Positions 5,361-62,492 of a stretch of DNA of 64,000 nt are shown piece by piece; position 1 is the first letter of the stretch, and each line of letters starts with the position of its first letter. Where the stretch lies: assembly GCA_021851785.1 (NCBI GenBank), contig JAJZBV010000005.1:62001-126000 (forward strand), in the 5' to 3' direction. A program made the position numbers and the translations under genes. The notes beneath the pieces are model-generated. The model was not told the origin of the DNA and made no database searches. It saw nothing but the letters and a program-made list of their open reading frames with translations. Source of the DNA: Pseudomonadota bacterium (GTDB taxonomy: Bacteria > Pseudomonadota > Alphaproteobacteria > Acetobacterales > Acetobacteraceae).

Positions 5361-6002
5361 CTAGGCCAGCGTGCCGCCGGAAAGAGCGGAGATTTTTTTG
5401 CGGAGATTGGTGATCAGCGCCTGCGGTCCGCCGGTCTCCAGGATGTGGCGGAAATCGGAGCGCTGCACCGCGACCCGGCTGATCGTCCCGTCGAGCAGCA
5501 CATCCACCACCTGCCAATGGCCATCGTTCTCGCGCATCACGTAATCGATCCGCACCGGATCATTTTTTGGAAAAACGATCCGCGTCTCGATCACCGTATC
5601 GCCGCCGACCACATGGGTCGTGGGCAGGATTTCGAGCCGTTCGCCGCTATTGTCGTCGAAATTGGCGACATAGCTCGCGACCGTGAAGCGATGGAACTCC
5701 GCGAGGAGCGCGGTTTGCATCTCGGGCGGAATGTCCGCCCAGTGCGGCCCGACGACGAGACGGAGAATGGCCGCGAGGTCGAAACTCTGCGCGACCACCG
5801 GGGCGAGGGTCTGGTAGCGCGCCGGGAAAGGGGCATCCTTGCCGGCTTTCATGACGTCGGTGAGGGCGACGTTGAGCGCCGCGATCGGCGCCGCGGCATC
5901 GGATGCCGCCGCGGCGGGGGACACGGCGGCGCGGAGCGAGGCAGCGGCGAGGCCGGCCAGCGAAGCCCGGAGCAGCGCCCGGCGGGGAAAATAATTCGGC
6001 AT
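5361..6002 (-). CDS. hpnM: Hopanoid-associated periplasmic protein HpnM (MlaC/Ttg2D-like)
   Basis: 213 residues with an N-terminal signal that contains a twin-arginine-like PRRALLRAS stretch and ends in an Ala-rich cleavage region. The mature part matches the MlaC/toluene-tolerance fold: a conserved region with LAPVVAQSFDLAAILR and GPHWADIPPEMQ, then FTVASYVANFD and a C-terminal VDVLLDGTISRV. Members are periplasmic lipid-binding partners of ABC or RND transporters; HpnM works with HpnN in moving hopanoids to the outer membrane. hpnN is not in the window. The ATG lies 10 bp after the dxs stop, so translation is probably coupled to dxs. Confidence 0.87.
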   Translation of the reverse strand: MPNYFPRRALLRASLAGLAAASLRAAVSPAAAASDAAAPIAALNVALTDVMKAGKDAPFPARYQTLAPVVAQSFDLAAILRLVVGPHWADIPPEMQTALLAEFHRFTVASYVANFDDNSGERLEILPTTHVVGGDTVIETRIVFPKNDPVRIDYVMRENDGHWQVVDVLLDGTISRVAVQRSDFRHILETGGPQALITNLRKKISALSGGTLA

Positions 6003-6012
6003 CGGGATTATC

Positions 6013-7935
6013 TCACGAACGAACGGGAACGATCTTCGGGCGCCCGACCCCCAACGCCCCGAGCACGGTCTGGACGATATGAGCGGCATCGAGGCCAGCC
6101 GCCTCGATTTGGGTGCGCGGGCCGTCATGGTCAATGAAAATATCGGGCAGCGTGAGGGGGCGGAATTTAAGGCCGCCATCGAGCAGACCCTTGCGCGCCA
6201 GATGCTGCATCACCTGCGCCGCGAAGCCGCCGATCGCGCCTTCCTCGATCACCACCATCACCTCGTGCTCGCGGGCCAGGCGTTCGATCAGCTCGGCATC
6301 GATCGGCTTGGCGAAGCGGGCATCGGCGACGGTGGTCGAAAGCCCGCGCGCGGCCAGATCCTCGGCCGCCGCCAGCGCCTCAGGGAGCCGCGTCCCGAGC
6401 GAGAGCAGGGCAACCTTGCCGCCCTCGCGCAGCACCCGCCCGCGCCCGAGCGGCAACGGAACCCCCGCTTGCGGCAGCGCGACGCCGAAACCTTCCCCCC
6501 GCGGATAGCGGAAGGCCGAGGGGCGGTCGCCGATCGCGGCCGCGGTCGCCACCATGTGAACCAGCTCCGCCTCGTCGGCCGGCGCCATCAGCACCATGCC
6601 CGGCAGGCAGCCGAGATAGGCGAGGTCGAAGCTCCCGGCATGGGTCGCGCCGTCGGCGCCGACCAGGCCGGCGCGGTCGATGGCGAAGCGCACCGGCAGC
6701 GACTGGATGGCGACGTCATGCACCACCTGGTCATAGGCGCGTTGCAGAAAAGTCGAATAGATGGCGCAGAACGGCGCCATGCCCTCGGCGGCGAGGCCGG
6801 CGGCGAAGGTCACGGCGTGCTGCTCGGCGATGCCGACATCGAAGCAGCGCTCGGGAAAGCGCGCGGCGAAGCGGTCGAGCCCGGTGCCGGACGGCATCGC
6901 CGCGGTGATCGCGATGACGCGGGGATTCTTCTCCGCCTCCTTGACCAGGGCATCGGCGAAGACCCTCGTGTAGGAGGGCGGGCCGGGCGGCGCCTTGGCC
7001 TGCTCGCCGGTGACGACGTTGAATTTGGCAACGCCATGGTATTTGTCCGGCGCCGCTTCGGCCGGAGCATAGCCCTTGCCCTTTTGCGTGACGACGTGAA
7101 GCAGGATCGGCCCGCTCTCCTCGGCGTCGCGGATATTGCGCAGAACCGGCAGCAGATGGTCGAGATTATGCCCGTCCACCGGGCCGACGTAATAGAACCC
7201 CATCTCCTCGAACAATGTGCCGCCGGTCAGGATGCCGCGGGCGAATTCCTCGGCGCGGCGCGCGGTGCGCTCGATGCCGCGCGGAAAATGCCGCGCCATG
7301 CGCGCCGCGAGTTCGCGCAAGCTGAGAAATCTGCGCGAGGAGATCAGGCGCGAGAGATAGGCGCTCATGGCGCCGACCGGCGGCGCGATCGACATGTCGT
7401 TGTCGTTGAGCACGACGATGAGGCGCGAGCGCAGCGCCCCGGCATTGTTCATCGCCTCATAGGCCATGCCGGCACTCATCGCGCCATCGCCGATGACGCA
7501 GACGACGTGGCGGGCCTCGCCCTTGAGGTCGCGCGCGACGGCCATGCCGAGCCCGGCCGAAATCGAGGTCGAGGAATGGGCGGCGCCGAACGGGTCATAG
7601 ACGCTCTCGGTGCGGCGGGTGAAGCCGGAGAGGCCGCCACCCTGGCGGAGGGTGCGGATACGCCCGCGCCGCCCGGTCAAAATCTTGTGCGGATAGGCTT
7701 GATGGCCGACATCCCAGATCAGCCGGTCATGCGGCGTCTCGAACACCGCGTGCAGCGCGACCGTCAGCTCGACGACGCCGAGCGAGGCGCCGAGATGACC
7801 CCCGGTGACCGAAACCGCGTCCACCAGCTCGGCGCGGAGTTCGGCGGCGAGATCACGCAGCTGATCGATGGAAAAATTGCGGAGATCGCGCGGCTCATCC
7901 ACGCGATCCAGTGTCGGCGTCCGGGGTCTAGCCAT
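6013..7935 (-). CDS. dxs: 1-deoxy-D-xylulose-5-phosphate synthase
   Basis: First enzyme of the MEP isoprenoid pathway. It condenses pyruvate and glyceraldehyde-3-phosphate using thiamine diphosphate. The 640-residue length is normal. The ThDP motif GDGAMSAG...LNDND spans 149-180, the N-terminal region has [11 protein letters not shown], and the transketolase-type pyrimidine and C-terminal domains follow ([15 protein letters not shown] is clear). ATG 7935 has an excellent AAGAGGTGA site. It heads the hopanoid operon hpnM-hpnI-hpnJ and is divergent from ispH, so the first and last MEP enzymes flank a shared 447-bp intergenic region. Confidence 0.97.
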
Positions 7936-56083: not shown

Positions 56084-58801
56084 TCAGAACGGTTGCAGCA
56101 GGCGGTCGATATAGTGCAGTTCCTCCGCCGGGCGTTCGCGTTCGCCGCCGCGGCGGCGGAGTTCGTCCTCGATGGTGCGGCTGCGGGCCTGTTCCATGGT
56201 GTCCGGCACCGAGACATCGTTCGCTTCGTCGGCGCCGGCGCTGCCTTGCTCGACGGCGCGGCCGAGCGGGTCGCGGCGGAGCCGGCGGGCGCGGCCGGCG
56301 CCGTTGGGATCGGTGCCATCCTCGCCGCCGCGCGCCTCGCCGCCGCTCTGGCCGAGCTGGTTTTCGCCCTCGCCCTCCTGATCGGCGCTTTGATCGCTGT
56401 CGTCGCGCGTTTCCGCCTCGGCCCGCGCCTGGCCGCCCTTCATCAGCGCGGTCAGCGCCTCCTGCTCGGCCGCCGCCGCCGCCGCATCCTCACCCTGGCC
56501 GAGTTCCTGCCCGGCGTGACCCATCGCCATGTCGGCCTCGTTGAAATTGGCGTCGGCATTGTCTCGGTGGAGATCGGCGGGGGATGTGTCATGGGGCTGT
56601 CCGCCGCTTTGCGGGTTTTGGGCGTCGCTTCGCGGGCTCTGGGCGCCGCCATTCTGGCCGAATTTGCGGCGCCATTGCTGCAAGGCATGGCGGAGCGCCG
56701 TCTCGCCGCGCTGATCCGCCTGCTGCGCGGCGCTGGCATTGGCCTTGTCCGATGGCGTCGGCGGGCGCGGGGCGAGCATCAGGCCGAGCGGCAAGCCGCC
56801 GGGTTGACGGAACGGCCCCCCCGCGCCCTCGTCGTGCTCTTCGGCGCGGGCCTGGGCACGATCGAGCAACGCGCCCTGCTGGCGGACGAGTTCGCGGAGC
56901 GCGCCCTCCTCCTCGCGGCGCTGCTTGCGGGCGGCCTCACGGGCCGCGTCACGGGCCGGATCGCGGGGATGGGCGCGGGCGTTGCGGAGCGCGTTCAGCA
57001 TCCGCTCCAGCGCCCGCATCTCGGCGCGAGCCTCGTCCATCCGGCCGGCCTCGGCGTCTTCGCGCATCCGCTCGGCCATCTGCCGGAGCTTCTCGGCATC
57101 GACCCGTGTCGCGGGCGCGGATAGCGGCGCGGCTTTTTTCGCGTCCTCGGCGAGAGCCTGGAGATGCGCCGCGAGCGCTTCCTGAAAGCGCTGCATCAAG
57201 CGTTCGATGTCCTCGGGGCTGACCTTCTCGTCGGTGGCACGGCGTTCCAGCGCGTCGTGCAATTCCTGGCGCGCGGCTTCCAGCGCCCGCTCGCTCTCGC
57301 CGGTGCGGCCTTCCTCGAAATGCAGCGCGAGCTGCCACATCCGCGTTTGCGCCTCGCCGATCGCGCCCGGCGCCGGGTCGCGGCGCAGCAGGGCCTCGAT
57401 CGCGCGGTAATTGAGCCAGCCGCCGTAATCGGTGCCGAAGAGAGCGGTGCGCTGGGCGGTCTGGTCGAGAAGCGCGATGGCGCCGAGCCGCGCGCTGGGG
57501 TCGAGGCTCAGGGATTTGCGCGCCTCTGCCAGGGTCTGGGCGATCGGGTTGTGGAAATGGCGTTCCGGGAGGGTGAAGGCGGCGGGCTCGCTCGTCGCTT
57601 CGAGCCCGGCTTCGTCCCGCGCGACCAGCCGCGCCGAGACCGGCAGGCCCGCCCAGGGGTGCGCGGTGAGGTCGAGGATCGCCGTCGCATGGGCGGATTT
57701 CGGGCTGGCGCCGGGCAGCGGGAGGACGGTGTCCAGCGCCGGCGCCTCCGGCCGCGGCGCCAGCGAAAGACGAAGGCCGAGCGCCTTGACGCCGTATTGG
57801 TCGCTCGCCTGCCACGGCACGCGGAGTTCGGGGCGCCGCGGTTCGGAAGAGGACGGGCGCGGCCCGGCGGTTGAAGGCCCCGGCGGCGCGGTGAAGGCGA
57901 CGTTCGGCGGCGTTGCCGGAATCAGCGTCACCTCCCACGCGCCGCGCTCGGCCCAACCCTGACGCACCGAGAGCCGGCCACCGGAGCGGAGCACCGTCTC
58001 GATCTGAAAACTATCGGCGTCGAGCGCCGCGAATTCGGTGCTCCGGCCATCGAACAGAAGGCGAGGCACGGCGCGGCGGCCGCTCAGCGTGACGGCAAGA
58101 CGTGACCCGGCGGGAACGCTCACCTCTCCCCCGGGCGTCCCCCCGGGCTGAGGGAGAAAAAGCGGCGCGAGGCCGGTATAGGCGGGCGGCGTGATCCAGG
58201 CTTGCAAGAGCGGCGCCGGCCTGCCTGCGGCGAAGGCGAGATCCGGGGTCAAGGCGCGGCGGATCCGGGAAGGCGCCTCGGGCCCGGCGATGATCGCGGC
58301 GGCGGCGAGGGCGACGATCAGGGCGGCGCGGAGCGCGAAGCGGTCGCGCCGCGCGAGCCCGGGGTGTGGCCAGCCGCTCCTGAGGCGCCCGATCCGCGTC
58401 AGCACGGCCTTGCGATGGGCGCGCCACAGCGCCTCGCTCTCCGCACCCAGCGGGGCGGGCTGATCGGCGAGGGTGGCGAGCGGGCGATGGGCGAGGCCGG
58501 AGGCGCGCTCCAGCCGCCGCTCCGCAGCCTGGCGATCGGGCCAGGTGAGACCGCGCCCGCCACGCCAGAGAAGAACACCGAGCGCGAGCGCCAGCGCCGC
58601 GAGAAATCCGGCATGCAGCGCCGGCGGCAAGCGCGCCGGCAGATCGAGGAGAGCCGCGAGCAGGGCGAGCCCGAGAAGCCCGAGCGCCGGCCACAGCGCC
58701 GGCCAGAGATGTTCGAAGAAGAGCACGGCCCGGGCGCGGGTGCGCGCCCAGCGCAGCCCAGGGAGCGAGGACGGATCAGCTTGGCGGCGCGGCGCCGTCA
58801 C
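56084..58801 (-). CDS. DUF4175 / TIGR02302 family membrane protein
   Basis: 905 residues, function unknown, conserved in alphaproteobacteria next to lysA. Three hydrophobic segments near the N-terminus (about 28-55, 62-80 and 140-160) anchor it; a large beta-rich part follows, then a long charged helical region with likely coiled coil (about 560-690) and a low-complexity Gln/Asp/Gly-rich tail ending RPAEELHYIDRLLQPF. The GTG at 58801 overlaps the lysA stop (GTGA). Its stop directly abuts the truncated Res gene. Confidence 0.85.
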   Translation of the reverse strand: MTAPRRQADPSSLPGLRWARTRARAVLFFEHLWPALWPALGLLGLALLAALLDLPARLPPALHAGFLAALALALGVLLWRGGRGLTWPDRQAAERRLERASGLAHRPLATLADQPAPLGAESEALWRAHRKAVLTRIGRLRSGWPHPGLARRDRFALRAALIVALAAAAIIAGPEAPSRIRRALTPDLAFAAGRPAPLLQAWITPPAYTGLAPLFLPQPGGTPGGEVSVPAGSRLAVTLSGRRAVPRLLFDGRSTEFAALDADSFQIETVLRSGGRLSVRQGWAERGAWEVTLIPATPPNVAFTAPPGPSTAGPRPSSSEPRRPELRVPWQASDQYGVKALGLRLSLAPRPEAPALDTVLPLPGASPKSAHATAILDLTAHPWAGLPVSARLVARDEAGLEATSEPAAFTLPERHFHNPIAQTLAEARKSLSLDPSARLGAIALLDQTAQRTALFGTDYGGWLNYRAIEALLRRDPAPGAIGEAQTRMWQLALHFEEGRTGESERALEAARQELHDALERRATDEKVSPEDIERLMQRFQEALAAHLQALAEDAKKAAPLSAPATRVDAEKLRQMAERMREDAEAGRMDEARAEMRALERMLNALRNARAHPRDPARDAAREAARKQRREEEGALRELVRQQGALLDRAQARAEEHDEGAGGPFRQPGGLPLGLMLAPRPPTPSDKANASAAQQADQRGETALRHALQQWRRKFGQNGGAQSPRSDAQNPQSGGQPHDTSPADLHRDNADANFNEADMAMGHAGQELGQGEDAAAAAAEQEALTALMKGGQARAEAETRDDSDQSADQEGEGENQLGQSGGEARGGEDGTDPNGAGRARRLRRDPLGRAVEQGSAGADEANDVSVPDTMEQARSRTIEDELRRRGGERERPAEELHYIDRLLQPF

Positions 58802-60141
58802 CCGGACGCCTCGGCAAACGGCGGCACGACCTCGCCACGCCAGAGTTCGTCCCGCGTCTGGCGCGGCCGGATCACCGCCCATTGCGCGCCGTCGATCATC
58901 ACCTCGGCGGCCAGCGGGCGCGCGTTATAGGTGGAACTCATCACCGCTCCATAGGCTCCTGCCTCGAGAATGGCGACGCGCGATCCCGGAACAAGGGGGG
59001 GGAGTGGGCGATTGGTCGCGAAACTATCGCCGCTTTCGCAGACCGGGCCGACGACATCGACCGGCATCGGCGCCGCCCGCGCCGCGGCGGCGGAAATCGG
59101 CACGATGCCGTGCCAGGCGTCATAGAGCGCCGGGCGGAGAAGATCGTTCATCGCCGCGTCCAGCACCACGAAAGGGCGCGGCGCGGCGTTTTTCACCAGC
59201 ACCACGCTCGCGAGCAAGACGCCGGCCGGCCCGACCAGCCAGCGCCCGGGTTCGACCACGAGGTCGAGATCGAGCCCGCCGAGGCTCGCGCGGAGGACGC
59301 CGGCGAGAAGCGCGGGCGCGAGCGCGGTTTCATGGCGATAGGCGATGCCGAGCCCGCCGCCGCAATCGACGCGGGTGACGCGCTCGCCGGCGGCGCGGAG
59401 AGCGCGAACCAGCCCGGCGATGCGGTCGAGCGCGGCGCGATAGGGGCCGGCTTCGGTGATCTGGCTCCCGATATGAACGGCGAGCCCCACGGTGCGGAGG
59501 CCGGGGAGCCGCGCGGCATGGGCATAGAGCGCCGGGATGTCGTCGAAGGGAATGCCGAATTTATTGCCACGGAGCCCGGTGGTGATTTTGGGATGCGTCC
59601 CGGCGTCGATATCGGGATTGACGCGGAGTGCCACCGGCGCCTCCCGTCCCATCGCGTCGGCGACCGCCGAGACCATCGCCAGTTCCTCGGCGCTTTCGAC
59701 ATTGATCTGCCCGATCCCGGCGGCCAGCGCCTCGCGCAGCTCGGCGACGGTCTTGCCGACCCCGGAGAAAATGACGTCCCCGGCCGCCATGCCGGCGCGG
59801 CGCGCGCGCGCGAGTTCGCCCCCGCTCACCACGTCGGCGCCGGCGCCGAGGGCGGAAAACAGGCGCAAGACGGCGAGATGGTCGTTGGCCTTGACCGCGT
59901 AATGGATGCGGGCAAGCCCATCGAGCGCCGCCGCCAGCGCCCGATAGCGCGCCCGCATCACGCCGGCGGCATAAACCCAGCACGGCGTGCCGAGGGCATC
60001 GGCGATGGCGTTGAGCGGCACCCCTTCCAGCAGCAGCCCGTCCATCGCATGCAGCGAAAATTGCGGCCGCGCGGCGATGAGTTCGGCGGGCGAGGGGTCG
60101 GGATGCATGGCGCCCGCCGTTTCTTGCTGGTTTGCGCGCAT
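58798..60141 (-). CDS. lysA: Diaminopimelate decarboxylase
   Basis: 447 residues from ATG 60141 or 436 from ATG 60108. Last step of lysine synthesis. The PLP lysine is in IHYAVKAND, HIGSQITE and VDCGGGLGI are conserved, and the active-site Cys is in GPVCESGDSF. ATG 60141 overlaps the parA stop (TGATG); ATG 60108 may be the original start, kept from before the parA insertion. Neither has a strong ribosome site. Confidence 0.95.
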   Translation of the reverse strand: MRANQQETAGAMHPDPSPAELIAARPQFSLHAMDGLLLEGVPLNAIADALGTPCWVYAAGVMRARYRALAAALDGLARIHYAVKANDHLAVLRLFSALGAGADVVSGGELARARRAGMAAGDVIFSGVGKTVAELREALAAGIGQINVESAEELAMVSAVADAMGREAPVALRVNPDIDAGTHPKITTGLRGNKFGIPFDDIPALYAHAARLPGLRTVGLAVHIGSQITEAGPYRAALDRIAGLVRALRAAGERVTRVDCGGGLGIAYRHETALAPALLAGVLRASLGGLDLDLVVEPGRWLVGPAGVLLASVVLVKNAAPRPFVVLDAAMNDLLRPALYDAWHGIVPISAAAARAAPMPVDVVGPVCESGDSFATNRPLPPLVPGSRVAILEAGAYGAVMSSTYNARPLAAEVMIDGAQWAVIRPRQTRDELWRGEVVPPFAEASG

Positions 60142-61148
60142 CACTGAGGGAAGCCGGTTTTTTCAAGGATTTTTCGTGTGAGCCGCTCGAAATCGGCATA
60201 GCATCCGGTTACGGCACGCTGATGCCCGCCAAAGGCGCCATCGGCGGGGCGAAGCAGGAACATCGGTTTGCGCGCCTCCTGCGCCAGCGGCATGAGGGAG
60301 CGATAATCCTTGAGCGTGGCAAGGCGGTTCGGGTCGCTCTCGGGATCGCTCTCGGCTGCATTCTGTTCGTCGAGAATGAATTCCCGGTATTGTTGGGGCA
60401 TGCGCGTGATCCATTTCGCGTAAGCCCGCGCCGGTCGGCTTTCGCTGGTCGAGAAGCGCATCACGACATAGCCGATCGGCTGCATTTTGCCTTCCGGAAG
60501 AACGAGAGTTTTATTCGGGTTTTTAGATTTGGCTTCATCCCACATGCTACGCCAATCGCGCATGGTCGGCCCCATATTGCGCAGACCTTGAAGAGAAAAG
60601 AGATCGGCCCCGAGCGGCACGACGACATAATCACAGGCGAGCAACGCCGCGCGATTGAGCGCACCGAGATTGGGGCCGACATCCACCAGAGCGACTTCTG
60701 CCTGATGTGCTGTGCCCGCTGCGGCGATGGTGCGCGCGAAAGCGCTCATGACACGAAAGGCTCTCTCCTCACGATTCTGACAACGAGGCCAGGCGTCCGA
60801 TAACGTATCTTCAATAAGAGAAAGCTTGAGATCTCCAATCAATAATCCTATTGACTCGGAAAATGGATCAATAGGATCGAATACTATTTGAACATGAGGG
60901 AGGTGTATGTCTCCTGTTCCGCGAAATTGCGGCGAAAGCACGTCGTAAATCGTGATTTCATGATTTTCGCTCCCCCAAATTTTCTCTAATTCTTCTTCCG
61001 ACAGAAACATGCTGGTGAGATTCGCCTGTGGGTCGAGATCGACGGCGATCACGCGATAGTTCATCAGGGAAAGCATCCAGGCGACGTGATAGACCAGAGA
61101 CGTTTTGCCGACCCCGCCTTTATTGTTGAAAAAACCAATGGTTTTCAT
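60141..61148 (-). CDS. ParA/CbiA-type ATPase (cassette gene 2)
   Basis: 335 residues. Deviant Walker A KGGVGKTS at 10-17, followed by VIAVDLDPQANLTSMF (A' motif) and LVDVGPNLGALNRAALLACDYVVVPLGADLFSLQGL. It is a full-length ParA-like ATPase, but no ParB, parS or replication gene is nearby, so plasmid partition is unlikely here. The start overlaps the stop of the upstream AlbA_2 gene (ATGA) and its stop overlaps lysA. The DNA, especially 60.75-61.1 kb, is clearly more A+T rich than its neighbours, indicating transfer. Confidence 0.87.
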   Translation of the reverse strand: MKTIGFFNNKGGVGKTSLVYHVAWMLSLMNYRVIAVDLDPQANLTSMFLSEEELEKIWGSENHEITIYDVLSPQFRGTGDIHLPHVQIVFDPIDPFSESIGLLIGDLKLSLIEDTLSDAWPRCQNREERAFRVMSAFARTIAAAGTAHQAEVALVDVGPNLGALNRAALLACDYVVVPLGADLFSLQGLRNMGPTMRDWRSMWDEAKSKNPNKTLVLPEGKMQPIGYVVMRFSTSESRPARAYAKWITRMPQQYREFILDEQNAAESDPESDPNRLATLKDYRSLMPLAQEARKPMFLLRPADGAFGGHQRAVTGCYADFERLTRKILEKTGFPQ

Positions 61149-62332
61149 GGTCGCGCCCGCACCGTCACATGCACGAAATTGGGTTCGATCAAGAATTCGA
61201 GCGGCCGATTGCCATTGTCCGCCAGCGCTTTTTGGGCGCGCGGAATGCCGGAGCCGAAGCGCTGGACAAAACCCATTTCTTTCGCGGCGGACGCAAGCGC
61301 CGGGTTACGGGCGCTGGTCAAACCGCGTTGCGCGAAATTTTCCCTAGTCACTTCGCCATAAGGCCCGCCGGGGCTGAGGATTTCAATCCGATCATTGTAC
61401 CAGGTTATCGTCACCGGAGCGCCGGAATTTTCATAATTCCGGTGAATAACGGCGTTGCGGATGAGTTCGCGCAGAGCGAGCGCGGGGTAGGATGGCCGGG
61501 TTTCTTGTAACACGCCGCGCAAGTCGGCCGGCTCGGAGATGTTGAGATCGATGATCTCATCGAGACGGCGTAACACATCGCTGAGCGGGCCGCTGATTTC
61601 CTTCTGGTCGCGCACGAGATCGCCGATCTCGGTTCCCGGATAACGGACGAACTGAACATAGGCGCCGGGAAAAAAGTCGCGCGGATCCTTGCCACAGACG
61701 AGCAGGCCGACTGCTGTCGGCACGTCATTGGGGCCAATAAATCCAGCCGCGCGCAGTTGCTGCGCCAAGGGCCGCTGATTTTCGGCCAGAACATCGGGGG
61801 CCACGGCGGACGGCAGATATTCCTCACGGAAGCGGAGCGTATCGAGATCCGCCATGGTGGCGCCAGGGACCGGCTGCTGGTCGAAAGGCAAATTTCCCCA
61901 GCGCCGTTTCTCGGTCAGGCGCCGTTCTTCCTCCGCGGTCGCATAGCCGCGCCGCGGACCGATACGCACGCAAACCCGACCATTATATTTGAGCGGCGGA
62001 TTGTCCGAAGGTGTCACTTCGACGATCGCCATCGTACAGCCATCGAGGATATGCCGCCGCACGGCGATGACGGGCGGGGGAAGAATGTTGCCATCGGTGC
62101 GAAACCCCATCAGGGTTTGCAGCATATTCTCGGAAATGTCCTGATTGGCGCAGCTTCCGTCGTCGTTCACGCCGATGAAAATGACACCCATCTCGCGGCG
62201 ATCGGAAAGATCATTGGCGAGAGCGCAAATCGCCTCGCCGATTTTGGCCTTGTCCGCGAGTTGGTGCGTGCGCTCGACGTGATCCGCTTCGCCGTTTCTC
62301 AGAAGCTTGCGCAGTTGGTCATCGGACAGCAT
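61145..62332 (-). CDS. Schlafen/AlbA_2 domain ATPase, COG2865-like (cassette gene 1)
   Basis: 395 residues. Residues about 14-125 are an AlbA_2 (Schlafen) domain: E-x-x-H-V-E-R near the start, ICALANDLSDRREMGVIFIGVNDDG, and a C-terminal NGRVCVRIGPRRGYAT. Residues about 285-395 are a GHKL-like ATPase domain: RELIRNAVIHRNY (288-300), ILSPGG (318-323) and GFVQRFGSGI (354-363). Usually annotated as DNA-binding or RecG-related regulators, and frequent in defence islands. ATG 62332 has GGGA upstream, 16 bp after lptM. The pair with parA was inserted in the lptM-lysA gap. Role unproven. Confidence 0.83.
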   Translation of the reverse strand: MLSDDQLRKLLRNGEADHVERTHQLADKAKIGEAICALANDLSDRREMGVIFIGVNDDGSCANQDISENMLQTLMGFRTDGNILPPPVIAVRRHILDGCTMAIVEVTPSDNPPLKYNGRVCVRIGPRRGYATAEEERRLTEKRRWGNLPFDQQPVPGATMADLDTLRFREEYLPSAVAPDVLAENQRPLAQQLRAAGFIGPNDVPTAVGLLVCGKDPRDFFPGAYVQFVRYPGTEIGDLVRDQKEISGPLSDVLRRLDEIIDLNISEPADLRGVLQETRPSYPALALRELIRNAVIHRNYENSGAPVTITWYNDRIEILSPGGPYGEVTRENFAQRGLTSARNPALASAAKEMGFVQRFGSGIPRAQKALADNGNRPLEFLIEPNFVHVTVRARP

Positions 62333-62348
62333 GGCGCTTCCCGTTTTC

Positions 62349-62492
62349 TCAATACGGCGGATAGACGCGGGGGTAGGTGATCTGGTCTTTCGGCCCTGGC
62401 GCTTGCGGCGCGCCTTTCTTGCCGCAAGCGGCGAGACCCAAGGCCAGGGCGAGGCCGAGCAGCAGCGCCCGCCGCCAGTGCCGCGCCGTCAT
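62349..62492 (-). CDS. lptM: Small lipoprotein LptM (YifL-like)
   Basis: 47 residues. Signal with lipobox LAAC, then GKKGAP and a short Pro/Tyr-rich tail. Small lipoproteins of this form lie between argH and lysA in many alphaproteobacteria and resemble LptM, which helps mature the LPS translocon LptD. Start overlaps the argH stop (ATGA). Confidence 0.85.

Follow-up and report, generated by a model that had tools for sequence, protein, structure and literature searches.

The window analysed here is a stretch of 64,000 nucleotides from a bacterium of the family Acetobacteraceae (assembly GCA_021851785.1, contig JAJZBV010000005.1, positions 62,001 to 126,000 of the forward strand). Between lptM and lysA it carries a cassette of 2.2 kb, in which a gene for a Schlafen protein with a GHKL-type ATPase domain is followed by a gene for a ParA/Soj-like ATPase. 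On balance, we favour the interpretation of this cassette as a conflict module of two genes, most probably directed against phages and of the abortive-infection type, in which a Schlafen effector is combined with a dedicated ParA switch. The two genes form a real unit, which is inserted into a conserved operon in the host and located at scattered positions elsewhere; catalytic residues are conserved in both proteins, and one type of ParA accompanies four unrelated effector families.

Domains and conserved residues of the two proteins

The Schlafen gene (61145..62332, minus strand) encodes a protein of 395 amino acids. Pfam detects SLFN_AlbA_2 (PF04326) at residues 15-127 (61952..62290, minus strand; 1.2e-11, 45.6 bits with a cut-off of 25.3) and HATPase_c_4, a GHKL-type ATP-binding domain, at residues 304-390 (61163..61423, minus strand; 2.1e-18), and NCBIfam assigns no family to the protein. 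No winged helix-turn-helix (wHTH) domain was found with Pfam: the ATPase domain ends at residue 390 of 395, and no helix-turn-helix family matched at E <= 1. The AlbA_2 domain contains the three-carboxylate site E-x4-E ... D, with E15 and E20 present in all 42 full-length Schlafen members and D57 in 40 of the 42, and the spacing E-x4-E-x36-D is close to that of the SLFN13 triad E205/E210/D248. For rat SLFN13 it is reported that altering any of these three residues diminished the activity (PMC5862951). In the GHKL domain N293, G322, G323 and G360 are invariant. Since all three catalytic residues of Schlafen enzymes are retained in the AlbA_2 domain, a ribonuclease (RNase) effector fits this protein better than the nucleic-acid sensor proposed in a preliminary description of the window, and we predict that it is an endoribonuclease effector. 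A nuclease coupled to an ATPase switch is plausible.

The AlphaFold model of the Schlafen protein has a mean predicted local distance difference test value (pLDDT) of 80.8 and a predicted template modelling score (pTM) of 0.57, with a weak region at residues 323-341, and its best full-length structural match is 3lmm (Z 24.6 over 347 residues). The N-terminal part matches SLFN11, SLFN5, SLFN14 and the tRNase domain of SAMD9 with Z values of 8.5-9.6 (the VIA comparison, over 109-136 residues, gave 8.9 for SLFN11, 8.6 for SLFN5 and 9.6 for the SAMD9 tRNase domain), which is modestly higher than the value of about 8 below which Z has little meaning. The C-terminal part matches GHKL ATPases.

The ParA gene (60141..61148, minus strand; 335 amino acids) overlaps the Schlafen gene by the four base pairs ATGA (61145..61148, minus strand). 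Its product matches Pfam AAA_31 at residues 1-198 (1.9e-24) and contains the deviant Walker A motif NKGGVGKT at residues 9-16 (61101..61124, minus strand). The AlphaFold model (mean pLDDT 77.7, pTM 0.85) has 3pg5 as its best structural match, followed by Soj/ParA structures. Of 73 relatives, 70-73 keep each of K10, K15, T16, D37, D39 and D156, with 71 for the Walker A lysine K15. G14 is found in 62 of the 73 and is replaced by serine (GGVSKT) in 10. Open reading frames and Pfam matches thus bear out the coordinates of both genes, the ATGA overlap and the AlbA_2, GHKL-like and ParA domains given in the preliminary description.

Recurrence, distribution and decay of the pair

The pair recurs at unrelated sites and across phyla. 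A protein scan of genome contigs yielded 13 Schlafen relatives, seven of which have a ParA gene directly downstream (L017, L018, L020, L022, L025, L028, L029) and six of which have no adjoining ParA (L019, L021, L023, L024, L026, L027). In the host family the Schlafen gene is present in 15 of 299 genomes (E <= 1e-60) and a strong ParA match (423-610 bits) in 13 of 299, each survey being a draw of 299 genomes, presumably the same ones. All 13 genomes with a strong ParA also carry the Schlafen gene, adjacent to it; the next-best ParA matches of the family reach at most 208 bits. In G174 the neighbour of ParA is an incomplete Schlafen gene at the edge of a contig. Overlapping draws at other taxonomic levels gave the Schlafen gene in 17 of 398 genomes for the phylum, 7 of 289 for the class, 5 of 18 in the family of G420 and 1 of 78 in the order of G475. 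The distribution is patchy and decay is frequent.

The genomic neighbours of the pair differ in most loci read; L017, L018 and L020 have one neighbour family in common. A conserved third gene was not found in rough gene calls, the next commonest families occurring in at most four pair loci, and one of these families consists of frames antisense to ParA. Among 55 Schlafen-family rows, both genes are intact in 33, an intact ParA gene lies beside a clearly broken Schlafen gene in four loci (L145, L148, L178, L189), and eight loci with an intact Schlafen gene and no adjoining ParA are discussed below; the remaining rows are decayed or cut by a contig end. These statements on gene loss omit the contig-cut loci L062, L144 and L109 and the G174 locus (which is both L149 and L156), all of which are still among the 55 rows, and L119 was omitted as a duplicate of L020. 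In L145 (8244-11508) the Schlafen gene is split by an IS30-like frame, named by eye, and ParA is intact.

One putatively viral contig carries the Schlafen-ParA pair (L110). The Schlafen relatives in phage records all have less than 60% identity, the best-ranked one 31%. Plasmid relatives of the Schlafen protein with about 28% identity (Klebsiella, E. coli, Pseudomonas) are often annotated together with a TrlF family AAA-like ATPase, and this may be a second, parallel combination of a Schlafen protein with an ATPase.

Insertion of the cassette into a conserved operon

The gene order argH-lptM-lysA-DUF4175 is retained around the cassette. On the left side, 16 bp (62333..62348, minus strand) separate the Schlafen start from the stop codon of lptM, an lptM-like lipoprotein gene (62349..62492, minus strand; 47 amino acids) that has an ATGA overlap with argH and is conserved in relatives. 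On the right side (60098..60147, minus strand), the ParA stop codon and a possible start codon of lysA (58798..60144, minus strand) overlap as TGATG. Both edges are as first described, yet the lysA start itself has become uncertain because homology with relatives begins further in, near 60111.

Five other genomes of the host genus were compared, three of which gave a lysA match. One of the three, G001, has the pair at the identical lptM-lysA site, whereas G003 and G005 have an empty site, in which the lptM stop codon is followed by an in-frame lysA ATG after 6 and 14 bp, respectively. These empty sites support the insertion into a conserved operon that had been proposed from the host sequence alone. 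In G002 and G004 lysA was not detected at the threshold used, and neither the Schlafen nor the ParA gene of the pair was found. The left junctions agree in the host (G000) and G001, and the right junctions differ. G003 is closer to the host than G001, with DNA identities of 92.5 versus 89.5 for argH, 90.3 versus 86.1 for lysA and 89.4 versus 80.5 for the DUF4175 gene. Taken together with the agreeing left junctions, the simplest history would therefore be a single insertion event followed by loss in G003. Replacement through recombination is a less simple possibility.

The G+C content of the pair is 57.3% compared with 67.3% for the window, and none of 124 sampled windows of equal size was lower; the pair is indeed more A+T rich, as stated previously. 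Third-position GC is 0.69 and 0.59 in the two genes versus 0.84-0.86 in lysA, argH and the DUF4175 gene. The cassette itself contains no gene for an integrase or a transposase. The search for a promoter of its own revealed no sigma-70-like site on the minus strand between 58500 and 64000 and a single one on the plus strand, which is at chance level. An imperfect direct repeat of 25 nucleotides (76%; window positions 60098-60122 and 62322-62346) spans both cassette edges in the host, and the lysA leader resembles the Schlafen leader there. This repeat is possibly a duplicated leader, and it might also be due to chance.

Diverged ParA proteins beside other predicted effectors

Diverged relatives of the window ParA were found in 37 of 398 Pseudomonadota genomes, at 41 places that correspond to 39 loci after merging (G344:C183 and G344:C89, which have a 99% identical overlap of 122 bases, were counted as one). 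A likely cell-stopping enzyme adjoins the ParA gene in 33 of the 39 loci: a Schlafen protein in 22 (some broken or partial), SIR2 in four, RelA/SpoT in four and HEPN in three. The other six have a 244-amino-acid protein (one locus), small proteins (three loci, with the weakest ParA matches) or no such neighbour (one locus), or are cut at a contig start (one locus). Partner families were assigned by neighbour reading and Pfam (SIR2_2, RelA_SpoT, HEPN_RiboL-PSP), the HEPN protein of L165 being below the Pfam cut-off.

The Schlafen gene precedes ParA; SIR2, RelA/SpoT and HEPN genes come after it. On a ParA tree of 73 rows the partner types need 7 changes compared with 32.4 when they are shuffled, with one change each for the Schlafen-linked (38) and HEPN-linked (7) proteins and two each for those linked to SIR2 (17) and RelA (5). 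Each partner type essentially has a ParA clade of its own. The partners contain residues which we take to be the catalytic ones of their families: the RN-x3-H motif in 7 of 7 HEPN proteins, N120, D122 and H163 in 17 of 17 SIR2 proteins, and E170, Q172 and R174 in 7 of 7 RelA/SpoT proteins. In L201 (2549-4450) a ParA relative is followed by the 244-amino-acid protein, which is nucleotide-cyclase-like by eye and has no Pfam match. L205, L206 and L207 represent a further ParA subgroup, and the partners downstream are small proteins (about 140-170 amino acids) that are alike by eye and likewise have no Pfam match.

Some of these dyads are located in mobile elements. In one E. coli genome examined (NZ_CP027368.1; L210, 8000-9876) a P2-like prophage carries a ParA-SIR2 pair with the replication endonuclease gene on one side and the portal gene on the other, that is in the gpA-gpQ region, which was shown to be an antiviral hotspot of P2 by Rousset et al. 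(PMC9122126). Of 5426 genomes of E. coli, 12 contain the DNA of this pair at >=99%, with surroundings read in part, and ParA-SIR2 is also carried by Salmonella and by a Vibrio ponticus plasmid. Phage Pf1 (L211, 3061-4534) encodes the ParA-like Orf317, followed by an overlapping, unannotated HEPN-like frame. In phage WX-TY (L218) a hypothetical gene overlaps the end of a ParA-like gene.

Proposed function and alternatives

In the conflict module that we favour, the Schlafen protein would be an endoribonuclease that, by analogy, cuts tRNA or rRNA and thereby stops translation. ParA would be the ATP-driven switch of this effector, dimerising with ATP and binding the nucleoid like known ParA proteins, and infection would alter the ParA state, so that the Schlafen effector is released or licensed. 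RNase activity, toxicity, direct contact of the two proteins, the trigger and the choice between restraint and activation by ParA are the parts of this scheme that we infer. If the interpretation is true, the routine annotation as partition ATPase would conceal switches of cell-stopping enzymes, in chromosomes as well as in prophages and plasmids. A laboratory-ready member of the family to which the window pair belongs would be available in the ParA-SIR2 pair of E. coli.

Defence is suggested by some of the settings of these dyads, such as the P2 hotspot and phage Pf1, and the patchy distribution and frequent decay of the pair also speak for a conflict module. Two pair loci lie directly in defence systems: in a Desulfovibrionaceae genome the pair is located between DrmMI and DrmA of a DISARM locus (L025), and in a Desulfovibrio genome a frame-shifted pair follows JetA3-JetB3-JetC3 of a Wadjet III locus after 33 bp (L029). 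Neighbours were scanned with PADLOC for 120 of 127 listed proteins from 40 pair loci; they matched 105 families, the strongest among the matches listed being DISARM and Wadjet models. When these two defence loci and the window are set aside, 37 loci remain, whose 112 neighbours match 31 PADLOC families with one to three matching proteins per family. The best 25 of these 31 families are mostly methyltransferases and broad models (type II methyltransferase, candidate PDC-S01, mad2, mad3, RTasPolA); they contain no recognisable multi-gene defence system, in a comparison made without a matched random control, and no BREX family, a single BrxHI/BrxHII-type match from the scan with the DISARM and Wadjet loci not being among these 25. 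The Schlafen-ParA pair is therefore not generally an island gene.

Several observations weigh against an anti-phage module. General enrichment in defence islands, anticipated in the preliminary description, was sought by neighbour reading and PADLOC and mostly not found: a recognised multi-gene system surrounds only two of the 40 pair loci, in one of which the pair is frame-shifted, and the other matches are scattered, again with no matched random control. PADLOC has no system that matches the pair; apart from a match to the Walker A motif, it gives only partial domain matches, to profiles of pAgo and of Ago-associated SIR2. Ago-associated Schlafen domains have been reported (PMC6299218) and may explain these Ago-type matches. 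The correlation of Schlafen and ParA distances (r = 0.746, 32 pairs, 0 of 2000 permutations), which speaks for the module, could arise from co-inheritance alone. The ParA survey favours the four partner classes, since its query (A9) was derived from ParA proteins of these classes, and other classes are under-sampled. In eight loci an intact Schlafen gene has no adjoining ParA, which indicates that ParA is not always needed. Conversely, ParA has no effector neighbour in L196, L212 and L214 and in the E. coli prophages L216, L217 and L219, and ParA may therefore have a role of its own apart from the effector. In the latter three (5982-7040), P2-like prophages, the solitary ParA family gene is located between ogr and a late control/VgrG-like gene.

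A broader version of the conflict module is possible, though we put it forward with reserve: one ParA-class switch might serve modular anti-phage dyads with at least four killing enzymes (Schlafen RNase, NAD-consuming SIR2, RelA/SpoT alarmone synthetase and HEPN RNase) and act as a guard of nucleoid integrity. The ATP form of ParA on the nucleoid would report nucleoid degradation or phage takeover and fire whichever effector it is carried with.

It appears rather unlikely that the cassette is a toxin-antitoxin or addiction module, in which ParA as the antitoxin blocks or modifies the Schlafen RNase toxin and which is kept mainly because loss of ParA is costly and less for defence. Such a role of ParA has been proposed for HEPN-ParA dyads (Anantharaman et al. 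2013, PMC3710099), and the tight overlap of the Schlafen and ParA genes would agree with it, as would the four loci with an intact ParA and a broken Schlafen gene. A strict antitoxin is however not expected to be lost first, and three of the eight loci that have lost or lack ParA (L019, L124, L127) fall within clades of paired loci; a ParA stump is still present in L124, and no strong ParA match was obtained in G246 and G120, which contain L124 and L127, respectively. The surviving Schlafen genes make a strict antitoxin less likely and slightly favour a sensor or activator role of ParA, unless the ParA-less Schlafen proteins are inactive, and they could indeed have lost their activity.

A regulatory or spatial function, with ParA placing the GHKL-Schlafen protein on the nucleoid or at the pole and the pair adjusting host gene expression, seems improbable to us. 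Proteins related to the Schlafen-GHKL protein are, we presume, often annotated as transcriptional regulators, but the window protein ends just past the ATPase domain and has no detectable wHTH. The pair is inserted in housekeeping operons, and its upstream neighbour is co-directional in 26 of 39 loci (rough gene caller); patchy presence, empty sites and decay are nevertheless not what such a function would suggest. ParA/MinD ATPases position diverse cargo (PMC10241942), but here the same type of ParA also partners SIR2, HEPN and RelA/SpoT proteins.

That the ATPase, although clearly of the ParA/Soj family, is a remnant of a ParABS partition system beside an unrelated gene is scarcely credible and was rejected because ParB and parS are lacking: no parB adjoins the gene, the single ParB-domain match of the genome lies on contig C35 and not on C62, no parS-like site was found in the window at <=3 mismatches to a B. 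subtilis-type consensus, and the pairing of ParA with Schlafen recurs across phyla. The absence of both elements had already been noticed in the preliminary description.

Comparison with known systems

The preliminary description regarded the cassette as a candidate for an undescribed system, which holds only in part. Dyads of ParA with Schlafen, SIR2 or RelA were not described in the literature searched, which comprised mainly open-access papers; a term look-up in the main texts of PMC3506569, PMC9503650, PMC7159879, PMC9122126, PMC13092281, PMC10799925 and PMC9519451 gave none of them. Schlafen-GHKL accessories of BREX and HEPN-ParA dyads, however, are known (PMC12839542, PMC3710099). For other conflict systems, MinD/ParA-like domains that are predicted to be inactive are described in the role of effectors (PMC7159879).

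The BREX-linked Schlafen RNases are described with a minimal histidine-kinase ATPase and a wHTH and were proposed to be suicidal RNase effectors (PMC12839542). Like them, the window protein combines a Schlafen domain and a GHKL-type ATPase in one polypeptide; unlike them, it has no wHTH and has a ParA partner, and the word ParA is not found in the main text of that paper. With the mammalian Schlafens and the SAMD9 tRNase domain the window protein has the fold and the spacing of the E-x4-E ... D triad in common, but it consists of a single Schlafen lobe joined to a bacterial GHKL domain and is a predicted RNase.

The structures that match the window proteins best, 3lmm (DIP2311) for Schlafen and 3pg5 (DIP2308) for ParA, have locus tags that are only three apart. 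Their identity to the proteins studied here is about 20%, and 3pg5 is by eye closer to the SIR2-type ParA. We know of no characterisation of these two proteins.

A close precedent is the dyad of HEPN (MAE_18760) and ParA/Soj, described and postulated to be a toxin-antitoxin system by Anantharaman et al. 2013 (PMC3710099). Like the cassette studied here, it combines a ParA/Soj-like ATPase with a predicted RNase in a unit of two genes, and such pairs (HEPN_RiboL-PSP by Pfam) were recovered beside relatives of the window ParA. In the cassette, by contrast, the predicted RNase is a Schlafen-GHKL protein whose gene precedes that of ParA, whereas the HEPN partners are encoded downstream and their ParA proteins form a separate clade. 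Thus, HEPN-ParA dyads were already known, and what is new here is the location of diverged ParA relatives beside other likely cell-stopping enzymes.

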